Shown here: positions 3,552-39,958 of the stretch, one piece after another
How the letters are laid out: the number at the start of each line of letters is the position of its first letter
Numbering within the stretch: position 1 is the first letter of the stretch
Assembly (NCBI GenBank): GCA_017511375.1
Contig: JAFWKJ010000013.1
Span: 1-39,958 of the forward strand
Length of the DNA: 39,958 nucleotides
Reading direction: 5' to 3'
DNA from: Bacilli bacterium
Lineage (GTDB): Bacteria; Bacillota_I; Bacilli_A; RF39; UBA660
The notes under the pieces: model-generated
The model's input: the letters and a program-made list of their open reading frames with translations, nothing else
What the model was told of the DNA's origin: nothing
Databases searched by the model: none
Position numbers and translations under genes: made by a program

Positions 3552-3581
3552 ATTATATCATTTCAAAAGAAACTAACGCAA
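3552..3581 (-). promoter_or_regulatory. candidate promoter of yutD
   Basis: -35 TTGCGT (3581..3576), 18-nt spacer, -10 TATAAT (3557..3552). The -35 overlaps the last codons of yunB, so yutD can be expressed outside sporulation. Confidence 0.5.
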
Positions 3582-4298
3582 GGTACCCGCATAATATTGA
3601 GGAACTTCTCCCGGTATAATTTCAAAAGATAATACGTTTTTAATCGTAGATTTATATGTTTTAGAACTAATCGGCATAGAGATTAAATTAGATACATTTA
3701 CGATGGAATACACTTCTACTATAGCATTATTAACTCCATACTCTTTGACTTGAATATCAACATCGGAAGTAACATATCCCATAAAAGAAAGCTTAATGGG
3801 TATCATAGGTCCTAAATTAGCAAACATGGTAGAACCTCGTAACGAATTGAAGGAAACTTCACATAAATATCCGTTTTGTAGATAAGGATATTTTTCTCTT
3901 AATCTTTCTTGGATGGCGTAATGGTCAAAATCAAAATTCCCTTGTTCCATTTTTCGATACTCTTTTTGGATTTCTTGAACTAACAAATCATTAAACTGAT
4001 TAATTTCATAGGTATTATAACGTATTCTAGAAACCTGGTCATCATCCTTTTTAATCGTAAAATACTCTAATCGATTTTGATTCACAGATTCTAAGGCTTT
4101 ATGTACCACAACAGAAGTAACTCTTTCCACTTCTGCATCGATATAAGAAGATAAAAGTTTATTAATAGAATGATCCAAATATAATAAAAAAACAAAAGAA
4201 AGAAAGAGGCTTCCTAATAACCCTCCTAAAAAAAGTCGATAATTTATTTTTTTTGAATTAATATGACATCTTCTCCAATTTTCACAATCTGAGACCAA
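3573..4298 (-). CDS. yunB: sporulation protein YunB
   Basis: YunB family membrane protein needed for normal spores in B. subtilis, where it is a mother-cell (sigma-E) gene. An N-terminal membrane segment (LFLGGLLGSLFLSFVFLLYL) is followed by an extracytoplasmic domain with the family strings TMFANLGPMIPIKLSFMG, EYGVNNAIVEVYSIVNV and the C-terminal IIPGEVPQYYAG. The 5' end is uncertain. The coordinate given uses a TTG with a poor RBS and overlaps the upstream gene by 55 nt. A better-placed site is an ATT at 4262..4260, 7 nt behind GGAGAAG, giving about 229 residues. Translational coupling to ymxH is likely. Confidence 0.9.
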   Translation of the reverse strand: MVSDCENWRRCHINSKKINYRLFLGGLLGSLFLSFVFLLYLDHSINKLLSSYIDAEVERVTSVVVHKALESVNQNRLEYFTIKKDDDQVSRIRYNTYEINQFNDLLVQEIQKEYRKMEQGNFDFDHYAIQERLREKYPYLQNGYLCEVSFNSLRGSTMFANLGPMIPIKLSFMGYVTSDVDIQVKEYGVNNAIVEVYSIVNVSNLISMPISSKTYKSTIKNVLSFEIIPGEVPQYYAGTLR

Positions 4299-4468
4299 TA
4301 AATTTTAGTATCACCCTCTCGATTTAAAGAAAAAAAATTCTTCCCCTGTTCAATCATAAAATAATCTACTTTCCCATCATCTAAAATAGAAATATCTATA
4401 ATGGTTCCTACTGCACTTCCACTATCAATCTCTATAATCTTTTTAGACTGTAACTCTGATAATCTCAT
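4244..4468 (-). CDS. ymxH: YlmC/YmxH family PRC-barrel sporulation protein
   Basis: 74 residues forming one PRC-barrel-like domain: MRLSELQSKKIIEIDSGSAVG, then a beta-rich core ending in DVILIQKK. YlmC/YmxH genes are spore-formation associated in Bacilli and Clostridia and commonly sit next to sigG, as here. It lies 31 nt after sigG and its 3' end overlaps yunB. RBS GGGGAGA is upstream of the ATG. Biochemical function is unknown. Confidence 0.88.
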   Translation of the reverse strand: MRLSELQSKKIIEIDSGSAVGTIIDISILDDGKVDYFMIEQGKNFFSLNREGDTKIYWSQIVKIGEDVILIQKK

Positions 4469-4499
4469 AGTATCTCTCCCCTATAAGAGTATGAATAAC

Positions 4500-5273
4500 T
4501 TATGATTTTAATACTTTTTTCAATTCTTTTATAGCCTTTTTTTCTAATCTAGAAACCTGTGCTTGACTAATATTTAATTCATCCGCAACTTCCATTTGTG
4601 TTTTTCCAATAATAAACCTTTGATCTAATATATATTTTTCTCTTTTTTTTAATTCATTCATCGCTTCATCCATCACTAATGGTTTAGAAAAATCAGACTG
4701 AATACTTTCATCCACTATTTGATCATATAAATAGATAGTTTCCCCTCCATCATTATAAATAGGTTCATACATACTCATAGGTTCTTTCATAGAAGATAAC
4801 GCTAAAAAAACATCATAAACACTGACATCTAATTCTGAAGCAATTTTATCATAATCTATTTCATGAACTCCCTCTTGGGTCATTTTCTCAATCATTTTTA
4901 AAGACCGATAAGAAATATCTTTTAAAGAACGACTAACTCTTAATGAATTATCATCTCTAATAAATCTTCGAATCTCTCCCATAATCATAGGAACCGCATA
5001 AGTAGAAAATTGAACCCCGTATTCTACATCAAAATTATCAATAGCTTTGATTAGTCCAATACATCCCACTTGAAACAAATCATCCATATTACGTTCTCGA
5101 TGATAAAATTTTTTTAATACCGATAAAACTAATCTTAAATTCCCTTCTACTAACAATTCTCTAGCATAAGAATCTTTGTCTTTTAAGTAAAAAAGTTTTT
5201 TCATTTCCTCTGAAGAAAGCGTCATCAATTCCCCTGTATTACAACCACTAATTTCAACCTTATATTTTCCCAT
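4500..5273 (-). CDS. sigG: forespore RNA polymerase sigma factor SigG
   Basis: 257 residues, normal for SigG. It starts with the SigG-specific N-terminus KVEISGCNTGEL. Region 2 follows at ~35-110 (NLRLVLSVLKKF, DDLFQVGCIGLIKAIDNFD, FSTYAVPMIMGEIRRFIRD), then region 3, the diagnostic EPIYNDGGETIY, and the region 4 helix-turn-helix at ~225-252 (KTQMEVADELNISQAQVSRLE). SigG directs late forespore transcription, so the organism makes endospores. The start is the ATG behind GAGGTG; an in-frame ATG four codons upstream lies on the RBS. It heads the sigG-ymxH-yunB block. Confidence 0.96.
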   Translation of the reverse strand: MGKYKVEISGCNTGELMTLSSEEMKKLFYLKDKDSYARELLVEGNLRLVLSVLKKFYHRERNMDDLFQVGCIGLIKAIDNFDVEYGVQFSTYAVPMIMGEIRRFIRDDNSLRVSRSLKDISYRSLKMIEKMTQEGVHEIDYDKIASELDVSVYDVFLALSSMKEPMSMYEPIYNDGGETIYLYDQIVDESIQSDFSKPLVMDEAMNELKKREKYILDQRFIIGKTQMEVADELNISQAQVSRLEKKAIKELKKVLKS

Positions 5274-5318
5274 AACACACCTCATTGTTCTTATGAAAAA
5301 AAAGAAGAAAAACTATAC

Positions 5319-5871: not shown

Positions 5872-6444
5872 TTACTCTTCATTTTCTATTAATTCTTCTT
5901 CCTCTTCTTCATATAAATTAACTTCTAAAAAGTTTTGTACTTTAGAAAGTGTAATTTTTACGTTCTTTCCGCCTTGTAAAATGGAACTAACTTTTCCATC
6001 TTGAAAAACTACAAAAGCAGGATACTTTCCACTCAACTTATGCTTACTAGGATACCGATTATTAAATTGATCGACAAACTCCTCTTGATCAACACCGGTT
6101 AAATTCAAGTAAACTACTTCTTCTGCAATTCCATTCTTTTGAACATATTTTTTAAAGTCTTTCTCAAAAGAACGGCATTCTTCTCCATTCGCCGTACACA
6201 AATAAACAATAGCACTAGAATTATCCACAACATAATGTTCTAAGTCCTTTGGTGTAATTTCAAACAATACCCCTCTTATAATAGGAATTTCCTTTTCATA
6301 TTCTTTATAGACTTCATACCATCTGCAAAAATATAAAGTTAAAAAGATACACCCACAAAACAAAGCAACCAAAATAATAGAATTCTTTACATAATTCTTT
6401 TGCTTAACGTCTTCTTCACTCTTATTCTTTTTGTCATTTGCCAT
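5872..6444 (-). CDS. membrane-anchored thioredoxin-like protein
   Basis: 190 residues. A charged N-terminus (~1-20) precedes one membrane segment (~22-42, IILVALFCGCIFLTLYF); the rest has a thioredoxin-like plan (SAIVYLCTANGEECRSF, then YPAFVVFQDGKV). The usual CxxC is replaced by C-x6-C, so classic oxidoreductase activity is doubtful. The C-terminus is a Glu run. The start is the ATG giving MANDKK because AGGATG lies 8 nt upstream; an in-frame GTG three codons earlier overlaps it. Probably cotranscribed with trmL. Function unknown. Confidence 0.8.
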   Translation of the reverse strand: MANDKKNKSEEDVKQKNYVKNSIILVALFCGCIFLTLYFCRWYEVYKEYEKEIPIIRGVLFEITPKDLEHYVVDNSSAIVYLCTANGEECRSFEKDFKKYVQKNGIAEEVVYLNLTGVDQEEFVDQFNNRYPSKHKLSGKYPAFVVFQDGKVSSILQGGKNVKITLSKVQNFLEVNLYEEEEEELIENEE

Positions 6445-6501
6445 ACGTATCACATCCTATAATAATATTTTAGCATATTTTTTTGTTTTTCCCTAATCTT
6501 T

Positions 6502-8667
6502 TTAAACATTATACTCTCTTAGAAGAGATTGAATCTCTTCTTTTTTCTCATCATAGAAAATAAAAAGTTTGTTTACGTCTAATGATGGATCTAGAATTTT
6601 TCTATTCTCATAATGATAAATATAGGTATAACTTCCATCAAAGAATACGGGATATAAATGATTACGAATATCTTTCAATTGATAAGAAAACTGATGTTCT
6701 TCTATATTCAGTATATTTCCTTTAATAATCATATTTTCCATTCTACCATAAACAGGATATTCTATATCTCCACAACCAAATATTTTATGATAGTCTTTCA
6801 CAAAAGAAGAAACTTCAGAAACAGATAATTCACAAGATAAAGGAATATTTTTAAGACCTAATCGTTGTAGATAATAAGCCGTATAAATATTCATAATATT
6901 TAAGTAATATCCTCCATAACACTCTTTAGGATAAGAATAAACATCCCCTACCATATTCCGATCTAAAAATTGATCTTGATAAGTAGAATGACATCTACCT
7001 AAATAGTATACAAGATTTCCTTTTTCATGATATTTTTCGTACAATTCTTTAGAAGAAACATAAATACGTATAAAAGGATAAGCTAAACAGGTAACTAATT
7101 GTTCTTCTGTTTTTACAAAACAAGTAATTCCTTTTTTATAACTAGTATCAATAGAAGAAAAAGATACTTCTTTTTCTAAATATTCTATAGTTGGTTTCAT
7201 TCTCTCCTCTATCAACTTTTCTATCAGGAATCTTCTAAGTTCATTAATCATTTTAATAGGAATGAAAACAGAAGAATCCATATCTACCTGTATTTCTTGA
7301 ATCATAAAAGGAGTATTTCCAAGTTTTGACATTTTCTCAATCATCTCTTCCTGCGTAATAGGAGAAGATTTTGCTTCTTCGACCATACCATGTTCTATCT
7401 CAATTTGATGAACACCATCAGAAACACAACCTTTTAGGGGACTATGTTTTTTCGCAACTACAGAAATAGCGATAGGAATCTTTCGTACTATTTCTGATAT
7501 AAGATATTCTTTTTCCAACAAACAATCTTGTGTTTTCATCACAATATCAGCTTCTTCCAATCCTATTTTATTATCGACATAACAAACATCAGAAGAAGAA
7601 CTACATAACTTATCTTTTTGATCATACAAATAATTAACAACCATTCCCTTATTTTGATGTAGAAAACGAATAGAATCATGTTGATGAAGACTCTTTCCCT
7701 TATCTAAGGCGATACGGATTTTGTTAGATGCTAAAGTAGCCTTTCCTATTTTTAATCCTATATGATTAGGTGTTTTCGGATTAATAATATGCTGACTGGA
7801 TTCATGAAATAAATATCCTAATGTAAATTCACGATTAAAAATCGTTTTTAATTTTTCTATCTCCTCTTCCAAAGAGAAAGGAACTTGATCGATTAATTTA
7901 CGATAAAAACTTGTAATAAATCCAACATATAAAGGGCCTTTCATTCGTCCTTCTACTTTAAAACTATCAATACTACTATTTAATAAGCGCTCTATCTGAG
8001 AACTAGTATTTAATTCCTTCATACTAAGTAAATATTCTTGCTTCCGAATTACTTTTTGATCCTTCAAAAGAGAATATGGTAATCGACAACTCCCAGCACA
8101 TTCTCCACGATTTCCACTTCTTCCGCCTATCATACTACTCATAAGACAACAACCAGAATAAGAAACACAAAGGGCTCCATGAATAAAAACTTCTTTCTCT
8201 ATTGGAATAGAAATTTGATCAATTTCTTCGATACTTAATTCACGAGAAAAAACGACTCTTTTAACCCCTAAATCATAAAACAATTTACAGGTCTCAATAG
8301 AACTGTTATTAGCTTGTGTAGAAGCATGTATTTCTAAATTAGGGTATTTTTCACGTAAAAGACAAATCATTCCAAAGTCTTGAACAATCAACGCATCTAC
8401 ACCATTCTTATGTAAGAAAGCAGCTTGCTCTAAAAAAGAATCTACTTCATGATTCTTCACAAGCGTATTCATCGTGACATAGAGTTTTACCCCATATAAA
8501 TGACAAAAACGAATTGCTTCCACAATTTCTTCATTGGTAAAATTAGGAGCAAATTTACGGGCACCAAAATTTTTACACGCCAAATAAACGGCATCTGCGC
8601 CATGATAAACAGCCTGCCTTAAACAATCCATATCTCCCGCAGGAATTAATAATTCATGTTTTTTCAT
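6502..8667 (-). CDS. U32 family protein (RlhA-like, long form)
   Basis: 721 residues. The N-terminal ~330 are the U32 domain: LLIPAGDMDCLRQAVYHGADAVYL, VKLYVTMNTLV and the Cys cluster CVSYSGCC...GNRGECAGSCR. The remainder matches the long-form extension (DUF3656-type). U32 proteins once called collagenase-like peptidases are now known to act in RNA hydroxylation (RlhA on 23S rRNA C2501, TrhP on tRNA U34) with Fe-S ligating cysteines, all of which appear to be present. Which RNA is modified here cannot be told. The start is the ATG behind GGGGTGAACTT; the 8-codon longer frame would include that RBS. Confidence 0.85.
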   Translation of the reverse strand: MKKHELLIPAGDMDCLRQAVYHGADAVYLACKNFGARKFAPNFTNEEIVEAIRFCHLYGVKLYVTMNTLVKNHEVDSFLEQAAFLHKNGVDALIVQDFGMICLLREKYPNLEIHASTQANNSSIETCKLFYDLGVKRVVFSRELSIEEIDQISIPIEKEVFIHGALCVSYSGCCLMSSMIGGRSGNRGECAGSCRLPYSLLKDQKVIRKQEYLLSMKELNTSSQIERLLNSSIDSFKVEGRMKGPLYVGFITSFYRKLIDQVPFSLEEEIEKLKTIFNREFTLGYLFHESSQHIINPKTPNHIGLKIGKATLASNKIRIALDKGKSLHQHDSIRFLHQNKGMVVNYLYDQKDKLCSSSSDVCYVDNKIGLEEADIVMKTQDCLLEKEYLISEIVRKIPIAISVVAKKHSPLKGCVSDGVHQIEIEHGMVEEAKSSPITQEEMIEKMSKLGNTPFMIQEIQVDMDSSVFIPIKMINELRRFLIEKLIEERMKPTIEYLEKEVSFSSIDTSYKKGITCFVKTEEQLVTCLAYPFIRIYVSSKELYEKYHEKGNLVYYLGRCHSTYQDQFLDRNMVGDVYSYPKECYGGYYLNIMNIYTAYYLQRLGLKNIPLSCELSVSEVSSFVKDYHKIFGCGDIEYPVYGRMENMIIKGNILNIEEHQFSYQLKDIRNHLYPVFFDGSYTYIYHYENRKILDPSLDVNKLFIFYDEKKEEIQSLLREYNV

Positions 8668-8722
8668 AAGTTCACCCCAAAGTTCATTCATATTATACCA
8701 TAGAAAAAGAATATAGTTTACT

Positions 8723-9097
8723 ATGAATCAAAATATCGAAAAAAGACTACAACAAATAAAAGCTGAAAACATCGTATGGATAATTTATCTATTCGTCATA
8801 GGTTTTTCTTTTTACTCTAACTATCTTGAAAAAGACTACTTTATAAACCATAACTTAAATAGTAAAGAAAAATATAGAACTATTAATATTCTGATTTTTA
8901 TGGTCATTACAACGGTTTATTTTTATTTTGAAAAAGAAGCAATCGAATCCTTCCTAGATAAAAATAAAAGTGAACAATTAAAAACCTATGACACATTAGC
9001 TTTTATTGCATCTACCATGATTCTTATATCAGGTATTATTTTCTTATACATCGCAATCGATGATAAAGATTTAGAAGAAGAAATTGCTTTTAACTAA
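8723..9097 (+). CDS. small membrane protein of unknown function
   Basis: 124 residues, not recognised. Three hydrophobic segments are visible: ~18-36 (IVWIIYLFVIGFSFY), ~52-68 (INILIFMVITTVYFYF) and ~88-110 (TLAFIASTMILISGIIFLYIAI), separated by charged loops, with an acidic C-terminus (DDKDLEEEIAF). It is divergent from the U32 gene with only about 55 nt between starts. The RBS is weak, which lowers certainty about the start. It is followed by the structured intergenic region with the mini-ORF. Confidence 0.7.
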   Translation: MNQNIEKRLQQIKAENIVWIIYLFVIGFSFYSNYLEKDYFINHNLNSKEKYRTINILIFMVITTVYFYFEKEAIESFLDKNKSEQLKTYDTLAFIASTMILISGIIFLYIAIDDKDLEEEIAFN

Positions 9098-9212
9098 TAT
9101 GTAAAATAACTGTCTGTTCGATTGTTTTATTCTTGGGGAAATGTTTTATTGCATTTGGAGCATTTAATAAGTTGGGTGGAGCCAAACTTCTTAAAAGAAG
9201 AGAGGCAGTAAT

Positions 9213-9296
9213 ATGACAAAGAAAGATTTTTTAATCTTTTCATTGATCACTACTATCACCCTTTTAATAATATTACTATATGTAGTATTAATGTAA
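9213..9296 (+). CDS. 27-aa hydrophobic mini-protein (toxin-like)
   Basis: ATG preceded by GAGAGG at 7 nt encodes MTKKDFLIFS... ending LYVVLM, 27 residues with a two-Lys/Asp head and a single ~20-residue membrane span. Size, composition, good RBS, stable flanking RNA structure and dedicated terminator resemble type I toxin genes of Firmicutes (Fst/TxpA-like), but the sequence was not matched to a named family. No antisense RNA promoter could be assigned with confidence. It could instead be a small membrane regulator or an untranslated stretch. Confidence 0.5.
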   Translation: MTKKDFLIFSLITTITLLIILLYVVLM

Positions 9297-9303
9297 AAGA
9301 AAT

Positions 9304-9331
9304 CCACCTAACTATGGCATAGTTTAGGTGG
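9304..9331 (+). other. hairpin immediately after the mini-ORF
   Basis: Stem of 8 bp (CCACCTAA / TTAGGTGG) extended by CTA/TAG past a one-base bulge, loop TGGCA. Its 5' arm with the preceding T (TCCACCTAA, 9303-9311) can alternatively pair with TTGGGTGGA at 9172-9180 in the 5' UTR of the mini-ORF, 9 pairs with one G-U. Confidence 0.65.
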
Positions 9332-9347
9332 AACCCAATGAATTGGC

Positions 9348-9383
9348 AACACTCAACACTGCATTATTGAATGTTCCTTTTTT
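9348..9383 (+). terminator. terminator of the mini-ORF transcript
   Basis: Stem AACACTCAA / TTGAATGTT (one A-C mismatch), 10-nt loop, then CC and a T6 tract at 9378-9383 on the plus strand. Confidence 0.65.
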
Positions 9384-9445
9384 ATTGTATGAAGTTTCCT
9401 TCATCTATATGTACTATATCATAAAATCATAAACTGTTCAAATAA

Positions 9446-9471
9446 CAAAAAAGATAGCCTAGCTATCTTTT
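9446..9471. terminator. terminator of rubrerythrin, bidirectional
   Basis: Dyad AAAAGATAGC / GCTATCTTTT with A and T flanks. It includes the stop codon region of the minus-strand rubrerythrin gene and can also stop plus-strand transcripts from the left. Confidence 0.8.
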
Positions 9472-10009
9472 AATAATTTTCACTCTTTAATTCAAAATAA
9501 CTTTGTGGATGAGCACATACTGGACATACATTTGGAGCTTTCTTTCCTACTACTACATGTCCACAATTTCTACAAATCCAGGTACTATCTCCTTCTCTAG
9601 AGAAAACAACAGCATCTTCAATATTCTTTAATAATTTACGATATCTTTCTTCATGATGTTTTTCAATTTCTCCTACCGCTCTAAACTTAGCAGCAAGTGC
9701 TGTAAAACCTTCTTCTTCTGCTGTTTTAGCAAATCCTTCATACATATCTGTCCACTCATAGTTTTCTCCATCAGCAGCAGCCTTTAAGTTTTCAATCGTT
9801 GAAGGAACTTCTCCTCCATTTAATTCTTTAAACCACATTTTAGCATGTTCTTTTTCATTATTAGCTGTTTCTTCAAAGATAGCAGCAATTTGCTCATATC
9901 CATCTTTTTTTGCCTTTGATGCAAAATATGTATATTTATTTCTAGCCTGACTTTCTCCTGCAAAAGCAGTCATTAAATTTTGTTCTGTTTTACTTCCTTT
10001 AAGTTCCAT
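9470..10009 (-). CDS. rbr: rubrerythrin
   Basis: 179 residues. The N-terminal four-helix diiron domain carries the ligand strings [18 protein letters not shown] and EIEKHHEER; the C-terminal rubredoxin-like knuckle has CRNCGHVV...CPVCAHP. Rubrerythrin reduces hydrogen peroxide in the cytoplasm of anaerobes, with electrons coming through the rubredoxin iron. This suggests a strict or near-strict anaerobe. RBS GGAGG is upstream and a good sigma-A promoter lies at 10047-10075. Monocistronic, ending in its own terminator. No complete PerR box was recognised. Confidence 0.97.
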
Positions 10010-35635: not shown

Positions 35636-38600
35636 CTAATTTTCACATTTTCCACAATCTGAAGTAGGTACGGATGTTTTATAACACTCATTATACACCC
35701 ATCCATTGCAATATCCAGCTACCAATGAAGACGTATTCGTACCCGGAATATTGCCACAAGAACTAAGAGTTCCCACAGTATATGTTGTTCCTGATAATGT
35801 TCTTTCTCCAGATATTTCTATAGGTGTTTTAAATCCAGCAAGCATTCCATTAATACCAGGTGTATCATACCAAACATCTCTAAAAGAATTTCCTTGACGA
35901 ATATAAGTCCAAGCATAAGAATCATACCAGTTACTAGTACCGTGTGTCACATTTGCCTGACATAGATATACTTTCGTTGTGCAGGTAATGCTACAATTAG
36001 ATCCACCAGTACTTGTATCAAAGCTACTACATCTATGTGAATAATCGCTATAATAGCTTGAATAAGCAAGTCGATTATAAGTACCACTACCACAACTAAC
36101 ACTGCATGAACTACCGTCCTTATATTTAATGTGTCCACTTGCGCAACAAACTTGAGAATTACAACTAGCAGAATCTAGTCCACAATCTGAACCATCATAC
36201 TTAGATGTTTTACTTCTATATTTCGTTCCCCCATCACAAGGTTCTGAACAACTTCCCCAACTTCCATAATTAACAGAACCGGAGCCACAACACGTAGGAA
36301 CAGAGACAGAACCTGTACATGTTATTGTTGTATTATTTCCAAGAGAATCTGTTAAATACATATAACCAGTTTTAGTTCCACTACTTGAACAAGATAAACT
36401 ATTAGATCTTGAAGAAGAAGATGTAAAACTAGATTCACCAGTAAACTTGTAAGTTTGACTCACTCCTCCAACTCCACTATTATCTGAAACCCTTGAAGGA
36501 GTAATGCTCATACTATTACTAGAATTTGTATTATAACTTCCAGATAAAGTACATTCTCCTGTTGGAGCTTTTTTGTCAATTTTTATAGATCTATATCCAC
36601 AATCAGTCGTATTACCAGCTCCATCTGAAACACTACCCGCATTGTTTTCTCCCTTTGCTCCTGCTGTCGTGGTATTTATTTGAGTATCAGTATATGGATG
36701 AGAAGCAGCAGAAGTCACACAACCTGACCCTCCTGTTCCATCATCACAAGAACTTGATACTGTTATAGTTTGATTAGTCCAGGGAGCAGTAGTAGGATAA
36801 TCTGTATTATTTGGATATTTTGCTGCCAATTTACATTCTGGAGCATGTCGGTCAATCTTAACAGTTATGGGACTACAAGTATTAGAATTTCCAACATTAT
36901 CAACTATACTAGTATCAGCAGGGACAGCATTACTAGTCGTATAATTACCATTATTTGTTCCTTCATAATCATTTGGTTTGGAATCATTTGAAGCATTAGT
37001 ACATCCAGACCCTCCAGTGTCACTACAAGAACGTGATACCGTTACAGTTTGATTAGTCCAAGTACCACTTGAATAACTAGATCCTCCTGCCTTTGCAGAT
37101 ACAGAACAATCTGGTTTTTTCCTATCAATGTTAACAGACAGTGTTCCACATGTTTGTATATTACCGGCTACATCATCAACCGTTACAGTCGTACCGTCTC
37201 CTCCTGGTCCTAGATTTTTGGAATAATGGGTATTTGCCGCTCCAGGATAATCATAATGTTTATCTTGTTTAGATGTGGTTGTACAATCACTATTGATAGT
37301 ACCCGCTTCATCTTTACATTCTCTAGATACTCTTACAGTTGCAGTCGTCCATTCTCCAGAATATGGATTATTTGTATATTTATCAACTGTTGAATTATTA
37401 CTAGAATCATAAGATTTTCCATTAGAGGCATATGTTCTAGATAAATTACATGCAGGTTTTGTGTAATCAGTCCATACATGGAAACCAGTTGGACAAGTTG
37501 CACTTATATTTCCTGCTTGATCCGCAACAGTTCCACCTTGTCCATCTCCAGCAGCTCCTGCATCATCTGTCTTTATTTCATAATCATAAGTATGATAATT
37601 TATACTATTAGGATCACAGGTACTATGGGTTGTTCCATTTGGATCACTACAGGTTTGATATATTCGGGTCATTTCTTTTTCATTTCCCGAACTTCCCCCT
37701 GTACCATTTTTCAAACTTAACCAATTATCAGTACCATTTAGATAACCTGAACCAGTTGTATTTTGTACAGAATAACTACTTGCACCTGTACCTGTTCCAT
37801 AGTTTTGGCCAGCACCACAAACTGGAATAGTATAATCAATTCTAACAGTTTGGTTTGGATCACATTCTGCACTTATATTTCCTGCTTTATCATATACAGT
37901 TCCACCAACGCCACGACCCATAGCTCCCGCATTAGAAATATCCATTTCTGAATCGTAAATAAAATAATCTATACTATTATCATCACAACCACTCTTAATC
38001 GTTCCGTTTTCAGTACATTGTTGTGTTACTTTCGCCATATTTTTCAAAGGACCCGTTCCATCATGTAAACCAATCCAGCCATAAGATGTTGCAAGTTTCG
38101 TACTAGAATCATTAAAGTTAGTACTACTTGATCCATACGCATATTTTGTAATCGTTGTACAAGTTGGAAGCGTATAATCAATTTTTACCGTTTTCTTTGG
38201 ACAAGAACTAATGTTACCCGCAATATCATTAATTGTTCCTCCGTCATTATATCCCATGGCTCCTGCATTATCTGTCTCTATTTCATAATCATAAATGAAG
38301 TAATTAATTGATCCATCATCACAATCACTATTAATACCTCTTGGACTTTGATTATCGTTACATACTTGCGTTACTTTTGCCATTTCCTTAATACCGCTAG
38401 ACTTTAATCCATTCTGCCATCCTAACCAGCCATGTGCAGTAAGAATACCATCAGAAGTAGGAGTAAAATTATTTTTATTTGCCCCTACTCCATAACTTAC
38501 GTCCGCCGTACATACAGCTTTCGTATAGTCAATCCATACATGTTTATTGGTTGGACAACTTGCACTTAAGTTTCCTGCCTTATCATAAACATCTCCACCA

Positions 38601-39958
38601 TTTTTATCTCCGGCAGCTCCAGCTTGATCGGTCTTTATTTCAAAATCATAAACATAAGAACTAAGACTTTCATCATCACAACCACTATGTGTATATCCAT
38701 TTGGATCGGTACAAGTTTGGTATACCCTAGTCATTTCCAAATGACTACCTGTTCCACCCTTAAGACTTAACCAAGCATTATGAAGGAGCCCTGATCCATC
38801 TGTATTAGATGTAGGTATACTAGTAGGATAAGAAGCTTTACTAGCACCGGTTGCATAATCTTGACCCGTATCACAAAGTGGAGCCGTATAATCAATCCAT
38901 ACAGTTTTATTAGTTGGACATTCTGGACTTTTATTAGCCGCCTTATCTAAAACATAACCACCAATTTTATCTCCTTTAGGTCCAGCTTGTGAAGTTTCAA
39001 TTTCTTGATCATATATAAAGTATTCTATACTATTAGGATCACAGGTACTATTAACACCTGCTGGACTACCACTATCTGCACAAACCTGTGTTACTTTTGC
39101 CATATTCTTAGTAGATCCACGTCCATTTTTCAATCCTAACCATCCATGTTTTGTTCTTAAATCTGTACTAGAGGCAGAATAACTTGATTTACTAGTACCA
39201 GAACCAAAAGTAAGACTCGTTGTACAACTTGGTAAAGTATAATCGATTTGTACCGTTTGATCTGCTGGACAATCACTATAGTTTCCAGCAACATCATGAA
39301 TTTTACCACCTTGCCCAACACCTTCAGCTCCTGCTACAGCAGTCTTTAATTCAAAATCATATACATAACTCTTCATGTCATTTGGACATAAACTTCTTTC
39401 ATTTCTTGGATCATAACAAACTTGTGTTACTCTTGCCATTTCTAGTTTTGGACCTTCTCCATTTACAAGTCCTAACCATCCATAAGATGTTAATAGATTT
39501 GCAGATGAAAGGTTATAATCATTTTTATTTGCTCCTGTACCATAGTCAATCTTGGTAGAACAAATCGGATGAGTTCTATCAATATTTGCTTTCATCACAA
39601 CCGTAGTACAGTTACCTGCTTTATCACACATAGTGAATTTTGCTCGTCTCTTTCCTTCTTTATATAGACGTAAGCCCTTGATACTAGCATTTTGTACTCC
39701 TTTTTCTGCCAATTCTAATGTTGCTCTGTCTTTTACATCATCATAAACTGTGGAAGTAAGAATTCCAGATGCCTCAACTCCATTATCTTGCTCTGTCGTT
39801 CCATCACCTACTTGATTACTATCTGTATCTTCTTCATTAACTTCCCACTTATAATTATATAAGTATAAATTATCCGTAACTTCAGCATCAATAATGACTC
39901 CATTTGGATATTTATCATCATTCATCCAAGTATTAACCAAATCGGAATATGCATCAAC
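35636..39958 (-). CDS. giant Cys-rich repeat surface protein, C-terminal part (5' end outside window)
   Basis: About 1440 residues are visible and the frame stays open through the right edge, so the true start lies beyond 39958. Order seen: an N-terminal segment ending in a CDKAGNC unit; six ~117-residue repeats (each C...GWLGL...MAKVTQVC...YFIYD.EI.T..AGA.G...GG...D.AGN...CP...V.IDYT.P); three ~99-residue repeats with WTNQTVTVS and C-x-D; one variant repeat; then a C-terminal Cys-rich region with a thrombospondin-1-like string WGSCSEPCDGGT. DxAGN followed by a closing DYT/DR strand is typical of Ig-like surface repeats. No LPxTG or membrane anchor at the end (DCGKCEN). Likely an exported adhesin-like protein. 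Confidence 0.85.
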   Translation of the reverse strand, partial: VDAYSDLVNTWMNDDKYPNGVIIDAEVTDNLYLYNYKWEVNEEDTDSNQVGDGTTEQDNGVEASGILTSTVYDDVKDRATLELAEKGVQNASIKGLRLYKEGKRRAKFTMCDKAGNCTTVVMKANIDRTHPICSTKIDYGTGANKNDYNLSSANLLTSYGWLGLVNGEGPKLEMARVTQVCYDPRNERSLCPNDMKSYVYDFELKTAVAGAEGVGQGGKIHDVAGNYSDCPADQTVQIDYTLPSCTTSLTFGSGTSKSSYSASSTDLRTKHGWLGLKNGRGSTKNMAKVTQVCADSGSPAGVNSTCDPNSIEYFIYDQEIETSQAGPKGDKIGGYVLDKAANKSPECPTNKTVWIDYTAPLCDTGQDYATGASKASYPTSIPTSNTDGSGLLHNAWLSLKGGTGSHLEMTRVYQTCTDPNGYTHSGCDDESLSSYVYDFEIKTDQAGAAGDKNGGDVYDKAGNLSASCPTNKHVWIDYTKAVCTADVSYGVGANKNNFTPTSDGILTAHGWLGWQNGLKSSGIKEMAKVTQVCNDNQSPRGINSDCDDGSINYFIYDYEIETDNAGAMGYNDGGTINDIAGNISSCPKKTVKIDYTLPTCTTITKYAYGSSSTNFNDSSTKLATSYGWIGLHDGTGPLKNMAKVTQQCTENGTIKSGCDDNSIDYFIYDSEMDISNAGAMGRGVGGTVYDKAGNISAECDPNQTVRIDYTIPVCGAGQNYGTGTGASSYSVQNTTGSGYLNGTDNWLSLKNGTGGSSGNEKEMTRIYQTCSDPNGTTHSTCDPNSINYHTYDYEIKTDDAGAAGDGQGGTVADQAGNISATCPTGFHVWTDYTKPACNLSRTYASNGKSYDSSNNSTVDKYTNNPYSGEWTTATVRVSRECKDEAGTINSDCTTTSKQDKHYDYPGAANTHYSKNLGPGGDGTTVTVDDVAGNIQTCGTLSVNIDRKKPDCSVSAKAGGSSYSSGTWTNQTVTVSRSCSDTGGSGCTNASNDSKPNDYEGTNNGNYTTSNAVPADTSIVDNVGNSNTCSPITVKIDRHAPECKLAAKYPNNTDYPTTAPWTNQTITVSSSCDDGTGGSGCVTSAASHPYTDTQINTTTAGAKGENNAGSVSDGAGNTTDCGYRSIKIDKKAPTGECTLSGSYNTNSSNSMSITPSRVSDNSGVGGVSQTYKFTGESSFTSSSSRSNSLSCSSSGTKTGYMYLTDSLGNNTTITCTGSVSVPTCCGSGSVNYGSWGSCSEPCDGGTKYRSKTSKYDGSDCGLDSASCNSQVCCASGHIKYKDGSSCSVSCGSGTYNRLAYSSYYSDYSHRCSSFDTSTGGSNCSITCTTKVYLCQANVTHGTSNWYDSYAWTYIRQGNSFRDVWYDTPGINGMLAGFKTPIEISGERTLSGTTYTVGTLSSCGNIPGTNTSSLVAGYCNGWVYNECYKTSVPTSDCGKCEN
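36563..37453 (-). repeat. three ~99-residue short-type repeats
   Basis: Three units begin ACNLSRTY, DCSVSAKA and ECKLAAKY. Each has a Trp-Thr strand (EWTTATVRVSRECKD, TWTNQTVTVSRSCSD, PWTNQTITVSSSCDD), a central D-x-x-GN and a closing IDR/IDK-x-P. They are shorter relatives of the six long repeats upstream. Confidence 0.85.
37454..39565 (-). repeat. six ~117-residue long-type repeats
   Basis: 2112 bp in six units. Common elements in each are a Tyr/Gly-rich start with Cys, W-L-G-L or W-L-S-L, E-M-A/T-R/K-V, Q-V/T-C, a YVYDFE or YFIYDYE-type string, AGA.G, AGN, C and a closing DYT.P. Units 3 and 6 share the variant W-L-S-L/E-M-T-R-V/I-Y-Q-T-C and DPNG; units 2, 4 and 5 share K-V-T-Q. This A/B pattern suggests duplication in blocks. 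Confidence 0.88.

Follow-up and report, generated by a model that had tools for sequence, protein, structure and literature searches.

The window analysed here is a 39,958-nucleotide stretch of DNA from a Bacilli bacterium of the UBA660 lineage, and makes up the whole of contig C11 of a 1.2-Mb genome with a completeness of 70%. A frame on its minus strand (35636-39958) runs for 1,440 codons, is open up to the contig end and stops at 35636. We interrogated the genome family by family and extracted the stretches of interest. The frame is predicted to encode the C-terminal portion of a modular type IV prepilin of very large size, about 1,850 residues, with a stalk of cysteine-rich immunoglobulin-like (Ig-like) repeats and an end carrying thrombospondin type 1 (TSP1) modules.

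The missing front end lies on another contig. The last 98 bases of the window match exactly the first 98 bases of contig C9, and the N-terminus read from there carries a class III (prepilin) signal, MGKINKRGFTLVELL, MGKINKRGFTLVELLATIAILGVLSVIAITAV, which exceeds the PF07963 cut-off (30.7 bits against 21.2). The joined protein has 1,847 amino acids (aa) and 66 cysteines. A tandem paralogue on C9 (C9:1883-6643), an intact single frame of 1,582 aa and 64 cysteines, has the same N-terminus. The assembly broke at the contig end because the same 98-mer recurs inside this paralogue. A sequence-only reading of the window had proposed extending it rightward to look for an N-terminal signal, taking the absence of one as grounds for rejection; C9 supplies a prepilin signal, and the proposal of an exported protein survives. 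As the front end carries a pilin signal, the protein is probably displayed on a pilus.

The 98-bp overlap is also found in the paralogue, which from overlap alone leaves two upstream partners possible, and the join might be a mis-assembly with the window protein starting differently. We regard this as extremely improbable. Both partners are prepilin N-termini, 92% identical to each other, and would leave the conclusion unchanged. The gene order of a relative, G026, also agrees with the join. There trpS, a rhomboid gene and a 127-aa-type gene stand on one side of a 1,641-aa giant prepilin, and a CAAX-type protease gene and htpG on the other, all on one contig. In the present genome the counterparts of the leading trio are found next to the paralogue on C9, and those of the protease and htpG past the window protein on C11 (identities to the G026 counterparts 94% for trpS, 86% for rhomboid, 52% for the 127-aa gene, 58% for the protease and 88% for htpG). 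The order in G026 thus unites the genes flanking the split and supports the join, and with either partner being a prepilin the conclusion is safe.

The body of the protein consists of repeats. Those numbered W1-W6 (112-123 aa) and W7-W9 (91-114 aa) have exactly four cysteines each, at matching positions, and the long repeats are 44-62% identical to one another, compared with a mean of 23.6% and a maximum of 35.1% for shuffled sequences. Cysteine makes up 3.57% of the joined protein, against 1.25% of the other window proteins (maximum 2.74%). The sequence-only reading, which saw a large exported cysteine-rich protein with six long and three short cysteine repeats, was right in this. It had also held that the repeats alternate in two variants, which is not the case: the long repeats run A A B A A B in the window protein and A A B in the paralogue, so the window protein has one extra three-repeat block. 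The repeats reached 17.3 and 16.4 bits against Big_3_2 (PF12245), under the cut-off of 23.3, and weakly resemble ordinary bacterial Ig-like domains; no NCBIfam family matched. The protein has no LPXTG motif and no C-terminal membrane segment, as had been noted, and ends ...DCGKCEN (SVPTSDCGKCEN). A sortase-anchored surface protein, which would have both the LPXTG-type motif and the membrane segment, is therefore ruled out.

The C-terminal end had been called TSP1-like, and profile searches with controls bear this out: WGSCSEPCDGGT is the beginning of a TSP1 module. We aligned 12 C-terminal modules, chosen by eye, from seven proteins. Five cysteines are invariant; the standard six-cysteine TSP1 pattern is absent, the third cysteine being missing except in L146. 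Searched against the PDB, the 12-module bacterial profile placed human thrombospondin-1 at the top (E=1.4e-11, three domains), followed almost only by TSP1 proteins. Two control profiles, with the cysteine columns fixed and the rest permuted, found no TSP1, which rules out chance as the cause of the match. A second model was built only from the prepilins of G027 and G016, in which modules were located through their Pfam TSP_1 matches. It finds two modules in the window protein (independent E-values, i-E, of 2.2e-8 and 8.1e-5); among several hundred shuffled proteins none scored better than E=0.14. Against PF00090 itself the window module scores 20.1 bits alone and 18.8 in the genome search, just under the cut-off of 21.6, and homologous modules in prepilins of G013, G016 and G027 exceed it. 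Every TSP_1 match above the cut-off in a genus-wide search sits in a prepilin (L157, L158, L159, L146). One of these, of 720 aa (L157:1435-3597, G027), has four consecutive TSP1 modules, three of them above the Pfam cut-off. The homology thus supports two predicted TSP1 modules at the end of the window protein. The view of the protein as host-like in design holds for these modules and not for the repeats. In another of the prepilins (L159:1348-4083, G016) a single TSP1 module is followed by a repetitive beta-helix-like stretch.

Table 1. Coordinates of the prepilin gene, its modules and the genes discussed with it, as positions in the window.
Feature	Position	Strand	Remarks
Giant modular prepilin, C-terminal 1,440 codons (predicted)	35636..39958	-	N-terminal 407 codons = C9:99-1319(-); basis overlap and synteny
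98-bp stretch, assembly break point	39861..39958	-	identical to C9 left end and to C9:5319-5416 inside paralogue
Long repeat W1, type A, 4 Cys	39248..39583	-
Long repeat W2, type A, 4 Cys	38897..39247	-
Long repeat W3, type B, 4 Cys	38534..38896	-
Long repeat W4, type A, extra block, 4 Cys	38183..38533	-
Long repeat W5, type A, extra block, 4 Cys	37841..38182	-
Long repeat W6, type B, extra block, 4 Cys	37472..37840	-
Short-type repeat W7, 4 Cys	37130..37471	-
Short-type repeat W8, 4 Cys	36857..37129	-
Short-type repeat W9, 4 Cys	36581..36856	-
Divergent final repeat W10	36320..36580	-
TSP1 module 1, WGSCSEPCDGGTKYR...	36146..36268	-	profile searches
TSP1-like module 2, GSSCSVSCGSGTYNR...	35993..36124	-	independent model, i-E 8.1e-5
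C-terminal Cys-containing head	35639..35992	-	without known domain; varies among relatives; no confident model
Single-pass membrane partner protein, 235 aa	34918..35625	-	10 nt downstream of pilin stop
Exported thioredoxin-like domain (CPHC) fused to multi-span CcdA/DsbD-like membrane part, 402 aa	20991..22199	-

The genome encodes the proteins needed to build a pilus. A PilB-type ATPase is on C10; C5 carries the platform protein, of PilC type, and the peptidase, of PilD type and with both A24 domains. The sequence-only reading had left open how the protein is held at the surface; the prepilin signal at its N-terminus answers that question, and PilB, PilC and PilD are there to go with it. In all, nine prepilin N-termini in the genome exceed the cut-off, the others being six of ordinary size and one of 753 aa with different repeats. 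The repeats of this last protein (L022:2028-4289; C5:80027-82288) are of the Listeria-Bacteroides type, below cut-off, making it another large modular pilin. The remaining T2SSE match is a Tad-type ATPase within a Tad-like locus. This locus (L024:1122-7776; C9:26-33 kb), with a TadA/CpaF-type ATPase, TadB/TadC-like proteins and a SAF-type protein, adjoins a cysteine-rich 623-aa protein. The AlphaFold 2 model of the N-terminal part (mean predicted local distance difference test score, pLDDT, 78) has a 51-residue helix (10-60) and a small sheet at pLDDT ~85, followed by beta domains. The C-terminal model is good for the repeats and the first TSP1 module. Fold searches with both models returned mainly generic Ig-like stacks with low TM-scores, which are weak support at most.

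Homologues are present in 34 of the 35 other genomes of the genus; in other families of the class, 23 genomes yielded none at E<=1e-10. The open frames beginning with a prepilin start range from ~830 to 2,126 aa. In the wider family most matches span only the pilin module, and many fall within frames of 500-1,879 aa, so that large modular pilins are a habit of the whole group, and this type of stalk mostly one of the genus. Named relatives are metagenome-assembled genomes of uncultured Bacilli, including UBA660, Candidatus Onthousia and Candidatus Faecimonas, which we take to belong to the RF39 group. A viral origin was rejected, a viral collection having yielded only short pilin-motif matches.

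The conservation of the N-terminus bears on whether the protein enters a filament at all. It might instead be a membrane-anchored fibrillar adhesin whose prepilin helix is only an anchor, never polymerised, and whose stalk traverses the cell wall by itself. Repeats totalling about 1,700 residues could reach across a monoderm wall without help, the size and the tandem copies fit, and there are weak fold matches to the stalks of giant adhesins. But in all 20 aligned N-termini G(-1), F(+1) and E(+5) of the motif are invariant, as are the cysteines of the first Ig-like unit, and type IV pilins require E(+5) to assemble, not for anchoring. The presence of PilB, PilC and PilD in the genome also argues for polymerisation. 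We consider a pure anchor unlikely, and display on a pilus the better account.

The tandem copies are recombination mosaics. Up to about residue 530 the DNA of the window protein and that of its paralogue share 82-96% identity; after this point the figure falls to 41-76%. In G008 the likeness of the two tandem giant prepilins (L148:2289-5897, 5942-9769) is 49-68% for most of the sequence, with 81-94% DNA identity in the last 290 codons, where they are more alike than either is to the G003 orthologue. These opposite patterns show that ends and stalks are exchanged between tandem copies. Together with the extra A-A-B block, they agree with the block duplication and recombination that had been proposed from the repeats alone. 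The variable ends also speak to another possibility, that the protein is a pseudopilin-type tip subunit of a pseudopilus for DNA uptake or secretion, rather than an adhesin. Com pili do serve DNA uptake in monoderm Bacilli, and modular tip pilins such as ComZ act in DNA capture, according to the passage on them in PMC8179133. A conserved DNA-binding role is hard to square with C-terminal heads that vary strongly among copies, and TSP1 modules on a long Ig-like stalk are an adhesin-type layout. This makes a role in DNA uptake or secretion quite improbable.

The prepilin signal, the pilin-like helix, the repeats with their invariant cysteines, the TSP1 homology, the assembly genes and the conservation in the genus, all read from sequence, point to a pilus-displayed adhesin of the modular-pilin kind: a prepilin with a disulfide-braced Ig-like stalk and a TSP1-like end. 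We consider this likely. Cleavage by PilD would fall just ahead of GFTLVE, after which PilB and PilC would bring the helical pilin module into a type IV filament. The presumably disulfide-braced repeats, the two TSP1 modules and the variable cysteine-containing head would stand out from the filament, in all likelihood at its tip, and this projecting part would bind a ligand on a host or bacterial surface.

Several points weigh against this picture. The protein is far larger than the characterised modular pilins, and its assembly into a filament may be impossible or need a special route. No PilT was seen in the genome, at its completeness of 70%. The fold search returned no pilin, the Ig-like part filling the match list, and there is no confident model of the C-terminal 128 residues. 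The second TSP1 module is supported by one model. The whole account is built on computational analysis.

The gene downstream of the pilin encodes a protein of 235 aa that has a single membrane helix, at its N-terminus. Its family follows giant prepilins in four other genomes (L147, L148, L151, L158), with different flanking genes. Two other families of small membrane proteins occupy the same place in L144, L145, L146, L149 and L150; no small membrane-protein neighbour is found in L142, L143, L152, L154 and L155. A small single-pass membrane protein stands after the pilin gene in most loci. That the pair is kept while its neighbourhood changes argues for a joint function, and the 235-aa protein might help the display or folding of the pilin. 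At L005:1300-1470 and 6600-6745 a common leader, TAGTAGAAAGTCTAGGGAGTGTTAGT, preceded by a terminator-like hairpin, is found for both prepilin genes. Duplication of the prepilin gene probably included its promoter, and each pair of pilin and membrane protein may therefore form its own transcription unit. We tentatively suggest that the two genes, a giant disulfide-braced TSP1-headed prepilin and a dedicated small single-pass membrane protein, form a cassette that gives this lineage a distinct system for display on pili. Stalks and heads would be recombined between tandem copies, which would change the binding end while the pilin module stays fixed; we hold this possible rather than probable.

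The cysteines raise the question of how a monoderm with a small genome would form up to 33 disulfides in one protein. The 402-aa CPHC protein in the window is conserved in the genus and has no Pfam match at 0.001. C7 encodes a further exported thioredoxin-like protein, with CSHC and a membrane segment at its C-terminus, and 35 of 36 genus genomes match either it or a related protein, which is the CPHC protein. Both are candidates for extracytoplasmic thiol redox or disulfide handling. A VKOR-type disulfide catalyst was looked for and none was found.

The closest known counterparts are PilB and PilC of Streptococcus sanguinis (PMC8179133, PMC9934059), which share the class III signal, the pilin module, a functional domain grafted to its C-terminus, a monoderm host and the PilB/PilC/PilD machinery; S. 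sanguinis PilB is a modular pilin that binds host proteins (PMC8179133). The C-terminal additions found here, TSP1 and Ig-like repeats, are likewise of kinds not confined to pili. In contrast to these pilins, the proteins described here have 1,847 and 1,582 aa, a cysteine-rich Ig-like stalk and a gene for a small membrane partner, and they carry TSP1 modules in place of vWA or lectin domains. CofB of the type IVb pili of enterotoxigenic Escherichia coli is likewise a minor pilin of large size that carries additional beta domains; as PMC8179133 describes it, its proposed place is the tip. However, it belongs to a diderm system, has one repeat and one sandwich domain and no TSP1, and is an adaptor for a secreted protein. 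Giant Ig-like adhesins of Gram-positives, such as that of Mobiluncus mulieris (PMC10619420), also have many Ig-like repeats with internal cross-links, including disulfides; the M. mulieris protein has 51 domains, with ester and isopeptide links, and the paper's abstract mentions no prepilin signal. Eukaryotic TSP1 proteins (thrombospondin-1; UNC5, with the order Ig-Ig-TSP1-TSP1) share the TSP1 profile homology and the placing of Ig-like domains before TSP1, but are not bacterial prepilins, and the third TSP1 cysteine is absent from most of the modules here. The shared order is probably convergent. A literature search found no TSP1-headed pilin and nothing on such pilins in this lineage; in the one paper that mentions 'thrombospondin type 1' together with pilins, the term concerns ADAMTS-13.

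The most extreme architecture in a 2021 survey of modular pilins had 860 residues (PMC8179133). The prepilins predicted here would extend modular pilins to more than twice that size and add an animal-type adhesive module, raising the question of whether the pilus machine can assemble a subunit of ~1,850 residues. They provide a concrete candidate for attachment to the host or to neighbouring cells in an uncultured gut-type group.

Two observations lie outside the prepilin system. On C10 (L020:2925-7401) a 1,075-aa protein rich in threonine, proline and glutamate has a small helical protein next to it and a sortase-like gene nearby. Within the window, a YunB-type sporulation protein is encoded alongside a sigma-70 family factor at 3573-5285, hinting that this small genome has sporulation genes.

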